Made by a program: the position numbers and the translations under genes | Shown here: positions 5,665-59,627 of the stretch, in pieces | Numbering within the stretch: the stretch's first letter is position 1 | How the letters are laid out: each line of letters begins with the position of its first letter | From: Prochlorococcaceae cyanobacterium jk18x22bins.40 | GTDB lineage: Bacteria > Cyanobacteriota > Cyanobacteriia > PCC-6307 > Cyanobiaceae | Direction: 5' to 3' | Assembly: GCA_022826155.1 (NCBI GenBank) | Contig: JAJDVL010000046.1 | Coordinates: 1 to 64,000, forward strand | DNA length: 64,000 bases | The notes under the pieces: generated by a model | Databases searched by the model: none | What the model was told of the DNA's origin: nothing | What the model saw: only the letters and a program-made list of their open reading frames with translations

Positions 5665-6213
5665 TCAGTCAATCTCCACGAGCCAACTACCTTGGTAGGC
5701 AGGGATTTGCACTTGGCCCGGTGCTGTGGCGTAGCCGTTGAACTGGTAGAACCCGGTGGCTGTGGGATTGCGCATTTTCAGCTCCACGACAATGGTCTCA
5801 GCTTGAGGGATTGGCTCATCGGGGGTGATTCGGACCACCCCTGGCCCCAGCTCAGTCACCTCTGATAACGTAAAATAGTCTTCACAGCGGGTCTTGGTGC
5901 CTGCAAACACTGATTTCTGTATGCAATTATAACCAAGCTTAACGCTATCAACATTAATTTTGCCACGCCATTTGTCAAAGATTTCTGGTGCGCGAACTGT
6001 CAACTCCAAAATGGCATGTTTTCTGGCTTTTGTGGGGAGAATCAGCTTTAAATTTGAGCGCCGCCGTGCTTGATTATTGCTGATTCGATAATCAAGACTG
6101 ACGTAACCGGGATCCTGCCTCCAGCGGAATTCCAGCAAGCTGGTTTGTGCCAGGGAAGGGACGGACCAGGGAACCAGGACAAGACCGGTGGCCAGAGCAA
6201 GAAGACGATTCAT
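5665..6213 (-). CDS. Secreted DUF2808 protein
   Basis: 182-residue exported protein of unknown function. The start at 6213 gives a clear signal peptide (MNRLLALATGLVLVPWSVPSLAQ). The open frame is longer upstream but that part has no signal. The mature part fits the cyanobacterial DUF2808 pattern: FRWRQDPGYVSLDY near the N-terminus, Lys/Arg-rich ILPTKARKHAILELTVRAP, two cysteines (CIQ...RCED), PIPQAETIVVEL, and the ending GFYQFNGYATAPGQ then YQGSWLVEID. It probably sits in the periplasm. It is convergent with the carbonic anhydrase remnant and divergent from cysK. Confidence 0.78.
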   Translation of the reverse strand: MNRLLALATGLVLVPWSVPSLAQTSLLEFRWRQDPGYVSLDYRISNNQARRRSNLKLILPTKARKHAILELTVRAPEIFDKWRGKINVDSVKLGYNCIQKSVFAGTKTRCEDYFTLSEVTELGPGVVRITPDEPIPQAETIVVELKMRNPTATGFYQFNGYATAPGQVQIPAYQGSWLVEID

Positions 6214-11833: not shown

Positions 11834-13046
11834 ATACGGGATTGAGGGGTTGGAGACGGGTATGCCCCCCCACCGGGCAACCGCGGCTGATCTGTGCCTG
11901 CAGGCTATGCACCTCCAGACCGGCTTCTCCGAGCTGCTGTTGCACAGCGGCAAAAGCTTCCAGCGTGGCCAGGGGAAGAACAATGCGACCGCCGGGCTTG
12001 AGGCGCGCCGCCGCCTGCTCCAGCACACTCTGACGATCTCCACCCCCGCCAATGAGCACCCGATCCGGATCGGGAAGCTTGTGCAGAACGACCAGGGCGG
12101 AGGCCCCGTGGAGATGGAGCCGCTGCAGGTCACACTCCGCCATGAGGGCGTTGCGCCGGATCAGGGGAACGGCTCCCACCCGCCGCTCCACCGCATGAAG
12201 TTCCAACCGAGGCCGCAGCCGCATGGCTTCCAGGCCCACACTGCCCACCCCAGCCCCCAGATCCCACATCACCCCGCTGGGGGGTAGGTCCAACTCCGCC
12301 AGCAGCAGCACCCGCACTTCCCGCTTGGTCATGAGGCCTGGATGGTCCCCATGCTGGCGCCAGACGCCGTCCTCCAGACCAAACCAGGGCAACGGCGCAA
12401 TACGGGAACTGGGGCGGTGCAGCAGGACCATCAGATTGAGGGGGTCCACGTCCGTGGGCAGCCCGTCGGGCTGCACTTGGCGCAGGCGCTCCGTGGGGTG
12501 TCCCAAGCGTTCCGCCAACCAGAGGTCGTAACAACCGATCATCTGGGTGGAACGGAGGACGGCCAACACGTCCGCCGGCCCGCCTTGGCATGGATCCGTC
12601 AGCACCACCAGGGCGCTGGGGTGGTGCCGCAGCTTGGCCACCAGACAGTCGGTGTCACGGCCATGGAGGCTCACCCATGCGGCGTCCTGCCATGGGCGCT
12701 TGAGCCGCGCAAACAACTGCTGCATGGAGGTGGCTGCCGGATAAAAGGTAAGGTCTTCGGGGGAAAAACGCTGCAGCAGCACACGACCCAACCCGAACCA
12801 GAGGGGATCCCCGCTGGTGAGTACCACACAATGCTTGCCCTGCTGGTGCCGCTGGGTGAGCCACCCCAGCGCTGCGTCCAGCGGGTCCATGCCGTGCATC
12901 TCTTGCGTCTTGGGCCGGGGTTGAAGTTGCTCCAGCATCCGCTGAGGGGCCAGCAAGCAATCACAACAGCTCAGCAGTTGGCGCTGGGGAGCCGCCATGG
13001 TGTTGGGGGCTCCCGCATCACAGCCAATCACGTCAATCCTGGCCAT
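11787..13046 (-). CDS. cobL: Precorrin-6Y C5,15-methyltransferase (decarboxylating), CbiE-CbiT fusion
   Basis: Bifunctional corrin-ring enzyme that methylates C5 and C15 and decarboxylates the acetate side chain at C12. The 419-residue product has an N-terminal CbiE tetrapyrrole methylase domain (MARIDVIGCDAG, VVLTSGDPLWFGLG) and a C-terminal CbiT class I methyltransferase domain (MTKREVRVLLLAELDLPP, WDLGAGVGSVGLEA). The start at 13046 begins exactly with the CbiE core. It overlaps the upstream hydrolase gene by 14 bases, so it is probably co-transcribed with it. It shares the corrinoid pathway with cobQ. Confidence 0.93.
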   Translation of the reverse strand: MARIDVIGCDAGAPNTMAAPQRQLLSCCDCLLAPQRMLEQLQPRPKTQEMHGMDPLDAALGWLTQRHQQGKHCVVLTSGDPLWFGLGRVLLQRFSPEDLTFYPAATSMQQLFARLKRPWQDAAWVSLHGRDTDCLVAKLRHHPSALVVLTDPCQGGPADVLAVLRSTQMIGCYDLWLAERLGHPTERLRQVQPDGLPTDVDPLNLMVLLHRPSSRIAPLPWFGLEDGVWRQHGDHPGLMTKREVRVLLLAELDLPPSGVMWDLGAGVGSVGLEAMRLRPRLELHAVERRVGAVPLIRRNALMAECDLQRLHLHGASALVVLHKLPDPDRVLIGGGGDRQSVLEQAAARLKPGGRIVLPLATLEAFAAVQQQLGEAGLEVHSLQAQISRGCPVGGHTRLQPLNPVFIVSGRSPHQALPVD

Positions 13047-37211: not shown

Positions 37212-37706
37212 TCAGGGTCGCCCCAGGGCAGCGCGCATGGCTTGACGGTCTTCCTTGGCGCGGTCGTGGCGGCGCTTGTCGTGGAGCTTGCGCCCCCGCC
37301 CCAGGGCCAGACTCAGCTTGATCCAGGAGCCCTTCAGGTGAAGATTGAGGGGCACCAGGGTCAACCCCTTCTGGGCCACTCCCACCTCCAGACGATTGAT
37401 CTCCCGCCGCCGGGCCAGCACCCGGCGGGTCCGCAAGGGCTCGTGATTGAAATAGCTGCCCGCCTGCTGATGGGGGGAGACGTGAACGTTATGGAGCCAA
37501 AGCTGCCCGTCACGGATCAGGCAGAAGCCGTCCCGCAGATTGGCCTTGCCCGCACGAATGGACTTCACCTCGGTGCCCAGCAGTTCAAGACCGGCCTCCA
37601 ACGTCTCCAGGACGTCGTATTGATGGCGGGCGAAGCGATTGTCCGCCAACACGGTTGATCTGCCCGTCCCGCCTTTGGGGCGCCTTGTGGTCTTGCATTT
37701 GGCCAT
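37212..37706 (-). CDS. smpB: SsrA-binding protein
   Basis: 164-residue tmRNA partner for ribosome rescue. The OB-fold motif reads [20 protein letters not shown], then [18 protein letters not shown] and [20 protein letters not shown] with the basic C-terminal tail that enters the ribosome. It converges with cysK copy 2 across eight bases. Upstream of it the DNA loses its housekeeping character. Confidence 0.94.
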
Positions 37707-38131
37707 GGCGTTTCAACGGCTCCTGTCCTTTGTCTTCTTCCCATGCTGGCCATGGGCAAAACATGAAGGAAAGTGAAGAATTGTTCATTCAGTGGCGTTC
37801 GAGCCTCATCGAGCCTCATAACATAAATTAAATTATAGTTGTTTCTAACCGCCCAGCTCGAGATGCATCCTTGTTCCAGAGTTTCAAGTAGTGCCAGAGC
37901 TGTAACAATTCTTTACCCCCCCCCCCCCCCGGAGAGCTTGCTGATTGGTGGGCAGGGCTGAGGAAAGCCTGGAGAATCCCCTCCGGGTTATCCGAACTTG
38001 TCAAGAAATCTTTTGAAAACCCGGCTACCAAGCCCTGTGGCAGTCTGGCACAGGCCAGACGGTCTTCAGGGGGTAAGCGCCCGGAACAATTCGGCAATCT
38101 CCCCCGCCAAATTTCCCTTGCCACGGGAAAG
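37707..38131. other. Intergenic stretch with short repeats and no convincing gene
   Basis: About 425 bases without a supportable gene. It holds a tandem 10-bp duplication (CGAGCCTCAT twice near 37799-37818), a short AT-rich patch (37820-37850) and the 15-C tract. A minus-strand frame at 37828-38169 crosses the C tract and looks random, apart from a peptide-like end (QLWHYLKLWNKD) that I cannot place. Confidence 0.5.
37916..37930. repeat. Homopolymer tract of 15 cytosines
   Basis: Uninterrupted C15 in intergenic DNA between smpB and the SLH chimera. Tracts of this length slip during replication and are also prone to sequencing error, so the true length is doubtful. Confidence 0.9.
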
Positions 38132-38902
38132 GTGAGGACGCCCAGAGATTGCTTGTCTGGACCAGGCAATCCTGGGGGGCAAGGGAAGACGGCTTTTCAA
38201 GGGGCTCCTAGCCGTCTTCCCTTGCCCCTGCTCCCCTTTACGCTGCCTTTGCTGATCGCCATGGCTCCTCTGGGCGCCGTGGCCAACGACCCGGAGCCGG
38301 ACAGCATCCAGAAGGATGCCATTGTCCAGGCTTCTTCCGACCAGCCTGCTCCCAATCAAGAGAACCCTTCGGATATCAAGGATTTCTCCGACATTCAGGA
38401 TCCCGACCATTGGGCCTACGAGCAACTGGAAAAGTTGGTGAAAGACAAGTGTGTGGCCGGATTTTATAACGAGTCCACAGGGGAGCGCACGTTCCAAGGT
38501 GACAAGAAGGCCACACGCTACGAGATGGCTATCCTTCTTAACTACTGCCTGGAGACCTCCCCGAGATTTGATTCTACTAAGACAGAAAATATAAATAATC
38601 AATACATTAACATATATTATGGTTATTATGTTAGCTTTGGCTTGACAGTTGGTTTGACTATCAATCTTTTATCCGTATCTGCAAGATTTGAGCAAGATTC
38701 AAATAAACAAGCATATGTTAAAATCCTTGAGTTTCTTGCAGCACCAGCTATTTCTGCTCTTATTTCTTTTGGAGCTGCTAGCTTAAATGAGAAACTAGCT
38801 ATTAAGGATGGGTCATCAGCAACAACTTTTCTGCAAAGCCTACAAAAAAGTGAAATTGTAATTCAGAGTCATAACTCTTTCTTCGGGCAACACTTCACTT
38901 AA
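38132..38902 (+). CDS. Chimeric exported protein: SLH domain fused to a foreign AT-rich tail
   Basis: Residues 30-52 form a signal-like hydrophobic stretch ending in GAVAND. Residues 84-140 are an S-layer-homology domain (DFSDIQDPDHWAYEQLEKLV, RYEMAILLNYCLE) like the one that opens the porin at 60230-61774. After about residue 145 the DNA abruptly turns AT-rich (38581-38640 has 13 G/C in 60) and encodes a tail with two hydrophobic helices (GYYVSFGLTVGLTINLL, ILEFLAAPAISALISFG) instead of a barrel. The only start is GTG 38132, and a perfect 18-bp inverted repeat lies in the leader region. It is probably a truncated porin-type gene joined to unrelated DNA; expression is doubtful. Confidence 0.6.
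   Translation: MRTPRDCLSGPGNPGGQGKTAFQGAPSRLPLPLLPFTLPLLIAMAPLGAVANDPEPDSIQKDAIVQASSDQPAPNQENPSDIKDFSDIQDPDHWAYEQLEKLVKDKCVAGFYNESTGERTFQGDKKATRYEMAILLNYCLETSPRFDSTKTENINNQYINIYYGYYVSFGLTVGLTINLLSVSARFEQDSNKQAYVKILEFLAAPAISALISFGAASLNEKLAIKDGSSATTFLQSLQKSEIVIQSHNSFFGQHFT
38176..38228. repeat. Perfect 18-bp inverted repeat with 17-base loop
   Basis: The arms at 38176-38193 (GGGGCAAGGGAAGACGGC) and 38211-38228 are exact reverse complements. The hairpin would sit in the leader coding part of the SLH chimera. There is no T run, so it is not a standard terminator. Confidence 0.9.
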
Positions 38903-39285
38903 AAAGCCATGGACAAATATCAGGTTTTCAATACCCACCTTCCCACCCAGAAGTCTCCTGGAAAAGCTGGGCGTCCACTTCTTGAGGACCGCTGCTTGCG
39001 CGGACCACCCGAGCACCACTGCCTACAGCGGTTGGGCACGGTCCACAGCAAACCCTGGCCTGGGCATTCCAGCCTCTGACGAGTTCTGGGAACCTGGAAA
39101 GATCCACCTTCTCCCTCCCGGAAAAACAGGCTGATCCAGCCAACAACACTCTGTTCTTTTGTTGCTTACTTCCTGGTGCTTACCACTCCAAAACCATGCC
39201 CAACCCCAACTCCAAATTCCAATTCTCGCCCCTTTTCACTTTGTCTAGAACTTCCCTCGCGCTGCCCTGGCTCTTCTTTTCTCCC
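38903..39285. other. Intergenic gap, no gene seen
   Basis: About 380 bases. Composition returns to GC-rich from about 38940 to 39250, between two AT-rich genes. No tRNA, repeat or conserved frame was found; short frames on both strands look random. Confidence 0.5.
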
Positions 39286-40158
39286 ATGAAAACTTTCACT
39301 GTTTCTTCTTTGGTTGCTGCATCAATGCTTCTTGCTGCTTGCGGTTCTGCTGGCAGTGATACAGCCATGGATCCTCCAGTACATAACGATCCTGTTGGAG
39401 ATCGATATACAGGTATACTCAACGACGCCACGGATTCTGCTTTATGGGTTCCGGGGGAACCTGATACTTTAATAGTTTCTAACGAGATACTTCCAGGCAC
39501 CGGAGGAATCAGATTTGATTTTTATTGTTCAGGTTTAAGTTGTGCGAATGAATTTTCTTCTGATGAATTTGTATTTGGTCCCTCATTTTTTAATTTAGCA
39601 GATGAAACAGCCTTTAATCAAAATGGTTTAGTTAATGGTCCTACAAAACGTACAATTCCTACAAAACGTCTAACTTCTTCAGACATTAAGATTGCAACAA
39701 CTTATGATTATTGGATGGGCGATAGTATGTTTTCAGTTGTCCAAGAACCATATAATAATCTTGTTAAGAGTTTTGGTCCTCAATATTCAGTAGTCTTAGG
39801 TAATAATACAGGTTCAAGACCATCAGGTACTGCTAGTTATACAGGAAAAACAGTAGCAATTACCACTGATAATACTAGGGGGCGAGATTTGGGAAATGTT
39901 CATCATGGATTGTTCAATGGAATATATAATTTTAGAAATAACACAATAGGTTTGGTTATTTCGTTTCCTGATATTCGTGTTAACACCTCATTCGAGAAGG
40001 TACCTGTCTCGCCTAATGGTTCATTCTCAGTCTCAAAGGTAGGCAGTTCAAGAGAGCTAGATGGTGCATTTTTCGGTAGAAATCACAATGAAGTAGCAGG
40101 AACTTATTTTCTTGAAGATGATAAGCTTGTTGGTTCATTCGGAGGAATTAAAAACTAG
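39286..40158 (+). CDS. TbpB-like surface lipoprotein (transferrin-binding-protein-like beta barrel)
   Basis: 290 residues, strikingly AT-rich for this window. ATG 39286 opens a lipoprotein signal (FTVSSLVAASMLLAACGS, lipobox LAAC). The C-terminal part has the repeated signature of TbpB/HpuA-like barrels: SYTGKTVAI, GLVISFPDIRVNTSFEKV, ELDGAFFGRNHNEVAGTYFL and the end KLVGSFGGIKN. Such lipoproteins of other Gram-negative bacteria are displayed on the surface by Slam-type exporters and bind host ligands; no Slam gene is in the window. Ligand unknown. The stop abuts a MITE-like element. Probably horizontally acquired. Confidence 0.72.
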   Translation: MKTFTVSSLVAASMLLAACGSAGSDTAMDPPVHNDPVGDRYTGILNDATDSALWVPGEPDTLIVSNEILPGTGGIRFDFYCSGLSCANEFSSDEFVFGPSFFNLADETAFNQNGLVNGPTKRTIPTKRLTSSDIKIATTYDYWMGDSMFSVVQEPYNNLVKSFGPQYSVVLGNNTGSRPSGTASYTGKTVAITTDNTRGRDLGNVHHGLFNGIYNFRNNTIGLVISFPDIRVNTSFEKVPVSPNGSFSVSKVGSSRELDGAFFGRNHNEVAGTYFLEDDKLVGSFGGIKN

Positions 40159-40270
40159 GGCACCTCTGAACAAGTCAGGGTCGTCTGCCATCAATCTCCT
40201 GCTTCGCCTGTCTCTACTGGGCTTTCCAAAAGCTCTCAGAGACTCAAGGGGGCTTATTCAGAGGTTCCCT
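40157..40270. mobile_element. MITE-like element with 20-bp imperfect terminal inverted repeats
   Basis: Left end AGGGCACCTCTGAACAAGTC (40157-40176) and right end, read inverted, AGGGAACCTCTGAATAAGCC (40251-40270) agree at 17 of 20 positions. Only about 74 bases lie between them and there is no coding capacity. The ends resemble those of IS5-group elements as I recall them. The left end starts within the stop codon of the TbpB-like gene. No clear target duplication was seen. Confidence 0.7.
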
Positions 40271-40497
40271 GGCTTTCACCTCACGTAAAGTCCATCCAGA
40301 CATGGCTACCACCAAGCCTGGCGGTAGCCACTCAATAAGACCAGGGGGGAAGGGAGGCATGGATTCGGTCTCCAAAGCGAGTGGACAAAAGGAAGGTGAT
40401 TTGGCAATAGGCTTAGGCCACTACCAGATCCTATATCCCATGGACCGTAGTGGGAGAAAACTGGACGGGGCCGTGGTCTACTGTTGACGACGGGTTG

Positions 40498-40626
40498 CTA
40501 CTTTGGTATGTAGGTCCCCTTGGTTTCACCGCTGACCTGATCAATGCGGGCATGGAGACCCTGGATATCTGCATGGATTCCTGTGGAGAGGGTGCGGATC
40601 TGATCTCGGGCCGGTGGCCGGACGTC
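40498..40626 (-). pseudogene. 3' remnant of a coiled-coil protein gene, copy A
   Basis: Reading the minus strand gives DQIRTLSTGIHADIQGLHAR followed by IDQVSGETKGTYIPK and a stop, a coiled-coil tail with no start or upstream domain. Positions 40552-40604 match the reverse complement of 58203-58255 at about 50 of 53 bases. The heptad-like pattern resembles the intact coiled-coil gene at 62731-63396, although the sequence differs. The rest of the 40271-40699 gap holds nothing else I can support. Confidence 0.6.
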
Positions 40627-40699: not shown

Positions 40700-41428
40700 A
40701 TGGACCTTGCCAAACCTCGCACCCATGCCAATCTTGAAGCCGCCTTTGGCGGTGAAAGCATGGCCAACCGCAAATACCTCTTCTTCGCTGAAGTGGCCAA
40801 AACCCTGGGCCACAAAGACCTGGCCAGGCTCTTCCGGGACACCGCCGCCCAGGAAACCGAGCACGCCTTTGCCCATTTCCGGCTCCTCCATCCGGAGTTG
40901 GTGATTGAGGATCCCCAGGCCTTGACCCCCGAACAACGGCAGGCCCTCCTCAGCCGCTGCCTGGAGTTGGCCATTGAAGGGGAAACTTACGAGTACACCA
41001 CCATGTACCCGGAATTTGCCGCTGCGGCCCGCTCCGACCGTGACGCCGCTGCTGCTGCGGAATTCGACGAGCAGATTACCGAATCCCGTGAACACGCCGG
41101 CATCTTCAAAAAGGCCGCCAGCAACTTCGGCTTCCTCACCTCCATTGAACATCATCACGCCGAGCGCTACGAGGTGGCCCTGGCTGCTCTGGAGGGCAAA
41201 GGCGAGGCTGCCGAGGCCGCCAACCCCGTCTCCGGACTCTGGATCTGCCGCGTCTGCTCCATGATCTACGACCCGGCCAAAGGGGATCCGGATTCCGGCA
41301 TTGCCCCCGGTACCCCCTTCGAGCAGATTCCCGACGACTGGGGGTGCCCCATCTGCGGCGCCCGCAAGGCCGGCTTCATCCCCTACCGTCCATCCACCCT
41401 GCAACAGCCGACCTTGCAAACCGTTTGA
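40700..41428 (+). CDS. Rubrerythrin with C-terminal rubredoxin domain
   Basis: 242-residue peroxide-detoxifying di-iron protein. The four-helix domain carries the metal-ligand glutamates ([65 protein letters not shown]). The C-terminal rubredoxin iron site has two CxxC motifs: [10 protein letters not shown] and [14 protein letters not shown] 40700 places the first helix correctly; the frame is open a little upstream. It starts the housekeeping block after the islet. Confidence 0.92.
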
Positions 41429-58154: not shown

Positions 58155-58262
58155 GCAAGCGCCCGTGACCGCTCCACCAAGCAGGTGGTGGCCCACGCGG
58201 TGGATCAGATTCGCACCCTCTCCACAGGAGTCCATGCAGATATCCAGGGTTTCCATAGCAAG
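58155..58262 (+). pseudogene. Coiled-coil gene remnant, copy B
   Basis: The frame gives ARDRSTKQVVAHAVDQIRTL followed by STGVHADIQGFHSK. Positions 58203-58255 repeat 40552-40604 in opposite orientation with about three mismatches. It is in direct continuation of the transposase fragment but shifted in frame. No complete gene surrounds either copy in this window. The remainder of 58263-58403 shows nothing. Confidence 0.6.
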
Positions 58263-58403
58263 TCCTGGTCAGGGATTCAGCCCTTCAGCACCATAAGTCC
58301 CAGGTGGAACACCATAGTCTAAAACGTGGAATCAAAAACCTGAGATGTGTAACAGAAATATAGACAATAAGGTCACAGAAATTACCAGAGGAAGGGGGGC
58401 AAC

Positions 58404-59627
58404 TCAGATTCTAGAAGCATAAGAAAAGCAATAGAGGGAATACAGTAGGTTAAGGAACCGATAACCACCACGAACAGATGGATCTTGCGTCAGAACACCT
58501 AGGTTTTTCATGCGTTGCAAAAAGTTATCAAAAACTCTAATTTCTCCACTGGTCAGATTTTTAATTATCTCTGAGCGGCGAAAATGGAAGATAGGCTTAT
58601 CACTCATCATTTTTTTTAGAATTGATCGATATTTCTCACTACGGATCGTATCGAAGACTTGTCGATCCAGAAATCTTCGCCCAATGATTTCAGTACCATT
58701 AACAATTCCGCGAAGCACTGTGTGTTTGTCAATCTCCAGCTCTTGAACCATACACTCCTGAGCCACGTGCCAGACCGATTCTCCTAGCTGATGAGCAAAG
58801 ACCGGCAATCCACCAGCGTACTGAACAAGGCTCTCTAAACCTTCTGAGCTAATTCTTGCCCCTGCAGAAGTAAAAGTGCTCTCATAAAATTCACGTGTCT
58901 CTTCTTCAGTCCAGGGATTTATATCCAATAGGTCAAAAACACGAGCCAGCGATTGTTGATTTTGAATCAGAGCTTTGCGACGCTCTTCCAGCCCAACAAC
59001 CAGAATACAAAGACAAATGCCTGAGTAGGATATAGATAATTCATCAACTGTACTTTTAAACCAATGAGCTACCTCTTCTAAGTTTGCCAAGCCGTTAACA
59101 TCATCCAGAATAAGTAGCAGTCCTTGTTTGTCCGTTTTTTTGATAAAATCTTGAATGTATAAACCAAAATTATTGACCATTGTCGAGAAATCTTGGTCTT
59201 CCAGGTTTAATTCAAGAATAACTCCAAATGCGCCAACCTTGCGAATATGATTACCAAAAAATTCACGCACTTTCTCGTGCCATGGCTGATTGATGCTCTC
59301 TTTTAATAATTGATTACAGATTTTCCTCATCATCCCATTAAGATCCCGCGCGCCACCAAGAAAGACATGGCAACCTGTCATATCATCTTCCTGCTCACAG
59401 CGACTACGGACAAATTGCACCAGCGAACTTTTGCCAATCCCCGGCTCACCGGCAACAAAACCAACCTTCAACCGACCATGAGTGCTAGCCATTGCCATCC
59501 GATGCAGATACTCAATCTCGTGCTGACGCCCTACGAAAGATTCAATCGGGACGGGTACACCGGGTCGAAACGGACTTAAGCCGGGGTCCATTTGTCTGGG
59601 CCGAGGGGATGGCTTAAACCCTAGCAT
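58404..59627 (-). CDS. AAA/STAND-type ATPase (accessory)
   Basis: 407 residues, clearly richer in A+T than neighbouring genes. After an N-terminal SPFRPGVPVPIESFVGRQHE comes Walker A VAGEPGIGKSSLVQF, Walker B GLLLILDDVNGLANLEEV, and a C-terminal winged-helix-like part. It resembles Orc1/Cdc6-like or 'archaeal ATPase'-type proteins spread by horizontal transfer, which have no agreed function; some belong to defence or stress modules. ATG 59591 (MDPGLSPFRPG) is an alternative start. No obvious partner gene is next to it. Confidence 0.75.
   Translation of the reverse strand: MLGFKPSPRPRQMDPGLSPFRPGVPVPIESFVGRQHEIEYLHRMAMASTHGRLKVGFVAGEPGIGKSSLVQFVRSRCEQEDDMTGCHVFLGGARDLNGMMRKICNQLLKESINQPWHEKVREFFGNHIRKVGAFGVILELNLEDQDFSTMVNNFGLYIQDFIKKTDKQGLLLILDDVNGLANLEEVAHWFKSTVDELSISYSGICLCILVVGLEERRKALIQNQQSLARVFDLLDINPWTEEETREFYESTFTSAGARISSEGLESLVQYAGGLPVFAHQLGESVWHVAQECMVQELEIDKHTVLRGIVNGTEIIGRRFLDRQVFDTIRSEKYRSILKKMMSDKPIFHFRRSEIIKNLTSGEIRVFDNFLQRMKNLGVLTQDPSVRGGYRFLNLLYSLYCFSYASRI

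Follow-up and report, generated by a model that had tools for sequence, protein, structure and literature searches.

Gene content and base composition of the islet

The window, that is, the whole stretch of 64,000 nucleotides analyzed here (G000:C47:1-64000), belongs to a cyanobacterial genome of 1.99 Mb, available as a draft in 51 contigs. Between smpB and a rubrerythrin gene it carries an accessory islet with two genes, a short one with an S-layer homology (SLH) domain, named here mini-SLH, and an AT-rich one encoding a predicted lipoprotein, followed by a MITE:

37212–37706, minus strand: smpB, the left flank (PF01668, E 2.4e-50); DNA homology to congeners ends at 37750
37751–40613, no strand: lineage-specific junction and accessory islet; the flanking blocks are not adjacent in congeners
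37901–37930, plus strand: near-palindromic 16-bp box TGTAACAATTCTTTAC directly followed by a C15 tract, a putative regulatory, possibly phase-variable, element
38132–38902, plus strand: mini-SLH gene; its product has a Sec signal, an SLH domain akin to that of SomB-type porins, and a tail with hydrophobic segments, the tail being encoded by AT-rich DNA
38176–38228, no strand: perfect inverted repeat of 19 bp around a 15-nt loop, where the mini-SLH gene encodes its signal peptide
38558–38899, plus strand: tail of the mini-SLH gene, AT-rich with a GC of 0.34 and a GC3 of 0.24
39286–40158, plus strand: gene for a lipoprotein of 290 aa with the lipobox LAAC at residues 16–19, a predicted cargo of Slam/T11SS
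39775–40155, plus strand: predicted C-terminal TbpB/NHBA-like barrel region (residues 164–290)
40155–40272, plus strand: MITE (110 bp, 40159–40268) with flanking CTAG/CTGG (40155–40158 and 40269–40272)
40700–41428, plus strand: rubrerythrin, the right flank (PF02915, E 1.1e-17; PF00301, E 7.7e-22)

The GC content, taken over 200-bp segments, has a mean of 0.623 (SD 0.067) across the window and falls below 0.42 in four stretches only (5901–6100, 38501–38950, 39401–40150, and 58351–59350). In the islet it drops from 0.64 to 0.33–0.37 in the two genes, with the MITE next, and the gap between them (38903–39285) is GC-rich, about 0.57. GC3 amounts to 0.67 in the SLH part, 0.24 in its tail, and 0.21 in the lipoprotein gene, the median for ORFs of at least 150 aa in the window being 0.73. 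The original prediction had described a compositional patchwork at this place, including the GC-rich gap and 13 G/C in the 60 bases 38581–38640. The count is exact, and the patchwork is real by measured GC and GC3, far outside the normal range of the window, with a GC minimum of 0.320 at 39501 against the mean of 0.623. In itself, such a patchwork is ordinary for so plastic a genome. A second AT-rich ORF of the window lies at 58404–59627 (407 aa, GC 0.43).

An Rfam search gave no match at 37–41 kb, and a tandem-repeat search found none. Neither islet protein matched PHROGs, and a scan of viral contigs revealed no relative of the lipoprotein family; a phage origin of the islet was set aside, as there was no phage match at all.

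The islet lies at a rearrangement junction

DNA homology to congeners ends at 37750 and starts again at 40614, and the islet is missing there in congeners. The comparison of the smpB–rubrerythrin interval among related genomes, as originally proposed, does not find a conserved interval: the two genes are adjacent in no congener in which both could be placed. They are on separate contigs in G004 and 58 kb apart in G009, and the genes 5′ of smpB and 5′ of rubrerythrin vary among the congeners examined. Upstream of rubrerythrin there is a tandem pair of genes for cargo-like lipoproteins in G004, and in G006 a porin-size SLH protein. Since smpB and rubrerythrin are never neighbors in the congeners placed, the segment 37751–40613 is a rearrangement junction, a larger event than insertions, and not a conserved interval with inserts. 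The two tandem genes of G004 (L067:6881-10451) are near-identical, the second without a signal peptide in its frame. A 54-bp repeat (94%) is found in inverted orientation in the rubrerythrin leader (40552–40605) and beside another AT-rich gene (58203–58256); it recurs 5′ of the rubrerythrin gene in G002.

The element after the lipoprotein gene, originally called MITE-like, proves to be a copy of a dispersed family. It has terminal inverted repeats, and the genome contains 15 matches, eight of them nearly full length. Its left CTAG/CTGG target copy contains the TAG stop codon of the lipoprotein gene. With about 110 bp, inverted ends, and dispersed copies, it resembles the MITEs with YTAG-type target sites, presumably of the IS5-like group. 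A further copy is found in G003, upstream of smpB.

The mini-SLH gene is one old unit

Residues 82–151 of the mini-SLH protein match the SLH end of the por_somb profile NF033921 (E 4e-9, profile positions 4–68 of 485). The protein shares a Sec signal and an SLH domain with the SomB/Som SLH porins of cyanobacteria but differs in having a short tail with hydrophobic segments in place of the porin barrel, the NF033921 match being confined to residues 82–151. The tail may tie a periplasmic SLH domain to the inner membrane. The 19-bp inverted repeat of the signal-peptide region has no second copy in the sequence stretches searched.

G009, G007, and G005 carry homologues of like design at unrelated loci (L083, L084, L085, and L088). 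The GC step from the SLH part to the tail, 0.57 to 0.34 in the window gene, is 0.56 to 0.38 in G009 and 0.57 to 0.35 in G007; the G005 version, which is shorter, and a second G007 version show a weaker step or none. The similarity of the window tail to homologue tails was equalled by 0 and 4 of 2000 shuffles. The 16-bp box precedes both the window gene and three of its homologues (G007, G009, and G005), with 0, 1, 3, and 3 mismatches, while the best match in 200 random 400-bp stretches never had fewer than four. As the GC step, the related tail, and the upstream box are common to the homologues, leader, SLH part, and tail form one old unit; a separate insertion of the tail in the window genome is rejected.

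A poly-C tract follows the box in three of the four mini-SLH cases, and box plus C15 is also found 5′ of a leucine-rich-repeat (LRR) gene in the window's genome. Copies of the box, at mini-SLH genes and the LRR gene, lie at 37901–37930 of the window, L084:1600-1625, L083 about 12314-12341, and L185:5006-5038. Poly-C tracts of at least seven number 210 in 1.18 Mb, and the box stands at four only. The box next to poly-C is a candidate for a shared promoter element, possibly phase-variable. Another recurrent context, CCTAGCCAGTAACT...TAC and then C12–C16, is seen at L174:19188 and L197:5293, both in the window's genome.

The original prediction had explained the patchwork by several insertions and deletions, here taken as recent changes between smpB and rubrerythrin, with some parts foreign. 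The composition steps, the MITE, the lack of the islet at this site in congeners, and the recurrence there of AT-rich cargo genes (GC 0.37–0.39) speak for it, and an accessory islet with AT-rich genes and a true MITE insertion is indeed what we observe. Against it, the flanks are not neighbors in congeners, which points to rearrangement, and the alternation within the SLH gene, read originally as separate insertions, recurs with related tail and box in homologues elsewhere in G009 and G007. For the SLH gene the explanation is refuted; as an account of the whole islet we consider it unlikely.

The AT-rich gene very probably encodes a surface lipoprotein

The most likely start of the AT-rich gene is the ATG at 39286 (MKTFTVSSLVAASMLLAAC) rather than 39196, and reading of the sequence from there reveals an N-terminal Sec/lipoprotein signal with a lipobox. 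The C-terminal region (residues 164–289) matches the NCBIfam profile slam_lipo NF041636 over positions 30–154 of 154 with E 6.4e-8, scoring 33 bits against a curated cut-off of 80; the match to PF01298 has E 2.3e-4 and 22.1 bits against a cut-off of 26. In a single-sequence search of the PDB, residues 175–286 match the GNA2132/NHBA barrel of Neisseria (E 0.0036), and profile matches to LbpB/TbpB have E 3e-4. Because these HMM matches are significant but under the curators' cut-offs, membership in the cargo family is likely, not proven. The lipoprotein shares with the NHBA/GNA2132 and TbpB/LbpB barrels (PDB 6cuj, 5o1r, 7jrd, and 4u9c) the end GxFxGxxxEVAGxF...GxFG; the likeness, compared by sequence only, is weak, and the N-terminal half is unmatched. 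In an AF2 model built from a three-sequence alignment (pLDDT 29), the eight-strand barrel is not seen.

Relatives among the congeners are found in G004 and G005, and the lipoprotein also matches (E 6e-7) the end of a protein in L164, the gene of which lies 4.2 kb from Slam. The barrel region is the conserved part, and the N-terminal half is variable with a conserved cysteine pair. The AT-rich gene thus very probably encodes, as judged by these family matches, a surface lipoprotein of a kind reported only from Proteobacteria.

A Slam exporter is encoded elsewhere in the genome

One Slam is recognized in the genome, at G000:C26:1146-2543. It matches SlipAM/DUF560 (PF04575) with E 1.2e-20 and 74.7 bits against a cut-off of 22, and its N-terminal part has TPR matches (TPR_19, E 4.5e-5; TPR_Slam, E 1e-3), each under its own cut-off. 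For the 90%-identical SB0662 Slam, the AF2 model (pLDDT 59, C-terminal part of low confidence) shows helices at 34–164 and 13 strands, where a Slam barrel has 14. A Foldseek search with this model retrieves general outer-membrane barrels, and the Slam profile has no match among PDB sequences.

Adjacency of cargo and Slam genes is common, though not required, and is absent here: the lipoprotein gene is on C47, Slam on C26. At least three more cargo-like genes, encoding long proteins, were recognized on C16, C25, and C33 of the window genome, where the search for cargo and homopolymers covered about 770 kb of sampled stretches. In G005 and G009, a paralogous cargo gene lies directly 5′ of Slam, in the order cargo, Slam, DUF1036 gene. 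A gene for a DUF1036-type secreted protein stands 3′ of Slam in 7/7 cyanobacterial loci (L110:2554-3168, L111:8127-8738, L112:5214-5828, L113:1750-2397, L114:8441-9130, L115:1848-2432, and L116:7751-8377), and no DUF1036 match was found beside the proteobacterial Slams examined.

The lack of linkage and the long cargo-like proteins would agree with a lipoprotein whose TbpB-like barrel remains periplasmic or acts without Slam, with Slam serving only the long helical cargo. This is distinctly unlikely, given that relatives of the lipoprotein are encoded near Slam in Proteobacteria and that the barrel is precisely the conserved part. Unlinked cargo also has a precedent in Neisseria, where a single Slam exports it (Slam1 with TbpB/fHbp).

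Slam is confined to one clade among the cyanobacteria sampled

Slam is encoded in 7/10 genomes of the genus, which represents a clade that occurs in sponges, Candidatus Synechococcus spongiarum (PMC5331489, PMC5408123). The congeners with Slam include Candidatus Synechococcus spongiarum SH4, LMB bulk15M, and SP3, the Synechococcus MAGs SB0662_bin_14 and SB0668_bin_13, and the cyanobacterial MAG CAR3_bin_5. A match to the TbpB domain (PF01298) is found in 5/10, all five with Slam; the three remaining without Slam lack PF01298 as well, one of these being only 72% complete. Among 390 cyanobacterial genomes of the class, the window genome alone has Slam and TbpB-domain family matches; in the class of a Defluviicoccus MAG, 42 of 385 genomes have a Slam match.

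In the tree, drawn with midpoint rooting for display only, six cyanobacterial Slams form one clade with a support of 100/100, nested in a group (95/94) with seven alphaproteobacterial Slams and that of one deltaproteobacterial MAG. Cargo homologues lie beside Slam in most of the close proteobacterial loci examined. One transfer from Proteobacteria into the clade is the simplest reading of this tree.

Slam/T11SS with TbpB-like cargo has been described in Neisseria, Pasteurellaceae, Acinetobacter, and Xenorhabdus (PMC5449769, PMC8406197, PMC12282271). The main Slam/T11SS papers treat Proteobacteria, with no mention of cyanobacteria, and a literature search joining "surface lipoprotein assembly" with cyanobacteria found nothing, its coverage being incomplete, so that an earlier mention may have escaped it. 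The present system resembles the proteobacterial ones in a Slam with a TPR part and a SlipAM barrel domain, in a cargo with a lipobox and a predicted C-terminal TbpB-type region, and in the placement of cargo beside Slam in some congeners. It differs in that the host is a cyanobacterium, the cargo is spread over several contigs, and the loci examined have a DUF1036 gene 3′ of Slam.

Homopolymer tracts in Slam and cargo genes

Homopolymer tracts are found in Slam and cargo genes, and species differ in whether the frame is on or off. The Slam of G005 has a G10 tract in WGGG codons, in frame, and that of G009 has G9 there, out of frame; in G005, a G11 tract beyond the lipobox splits one cargo gene. 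In G004 and G007, poly-G/C tracts also lie immediately 5′ of cargo genes. The tracts in or just 5′ of these genes are at L111:7400 (G10), L112 about 6540 (G9), L081:7444 (C11), L079:10880 (G16), and L117:1292 (G12). They are only suggestive of phase variation, the alternative being that the tract differences are assembly errors.

Discussion

The original prediction had singled out this region as the best candidate of the window for new biology. New biology there is, and it lies in the lipoprotein and the unlinked Slam, not in the patchwork. With a lipoprotein of this kind and a matching Slam in one genome, a secretion system appears to have been gained by a lineage of cyanobacteria that live in sponges. 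The AT-rich gene probably encodes a surface lipoprotein with a TbpB/NHBA barrel, exported by the Slam of C26 and gained once from Proteobacteria.

That the mini-SLH and lipoprotein genes are decaying pseudogenes drifting to AT is improbable: the composition and the shortened, porin-type SLH protein would fit, yet the lipoprotein frame is open over 290 codons with lipobox and barrel end intact, and the mini-SLH design is kept in congeners. Least credible of all is a chimeric assembly join, or the binning of proteobacterial contigs with the cyanobacterium, to which the 51-contig draft, a join unique to the window genome, and the MITE and C15 repeats might lend themselves, for in several assemblies, each named separately, Slam is surrounded by conserved chromosomal genes, its sequences form one cyanobacterial clade, the islet leader matches congener mini-SLH leaders, and G004 likewise has a cargo-like gene 5′ of rubrerythrin.

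In the Slam-dependent display that we favor, the lipoprotein would be exported by Sec, lipidated at Cys19, and delivered to the outer membrane, where Slam, presumably that of C26, would recognize its C-terminal barrel and flip it to the cell surface. The variable N-terminal half would then bind a ligand, most likely in contact with the sponge host or in nutrient capture. The Slam system would have passed a single time from Proteobacteria to the Candidatus Synechococcus spongiarum clade. The islet is a rearrangement junction that also carries the older mini-SLH envelope gene and the MITE.

On balance, we lean towards a complete type XI (Slam) surface display outside Proteobacteria, in which a single transferred Slam would serve several dispersed, partly phase-variable lipoproteins for animal association. 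Among the cyanobacteria sampled, Slam/T11SS is confined to the sponge-symbiont clade. This pattern suggests that surface display of a type frequently associated with animal hosts has passed from one phylum to another, plausibly within the sponge microbiome. Named genes are now at hand for how uncultured symbionts may present themselves to their host.
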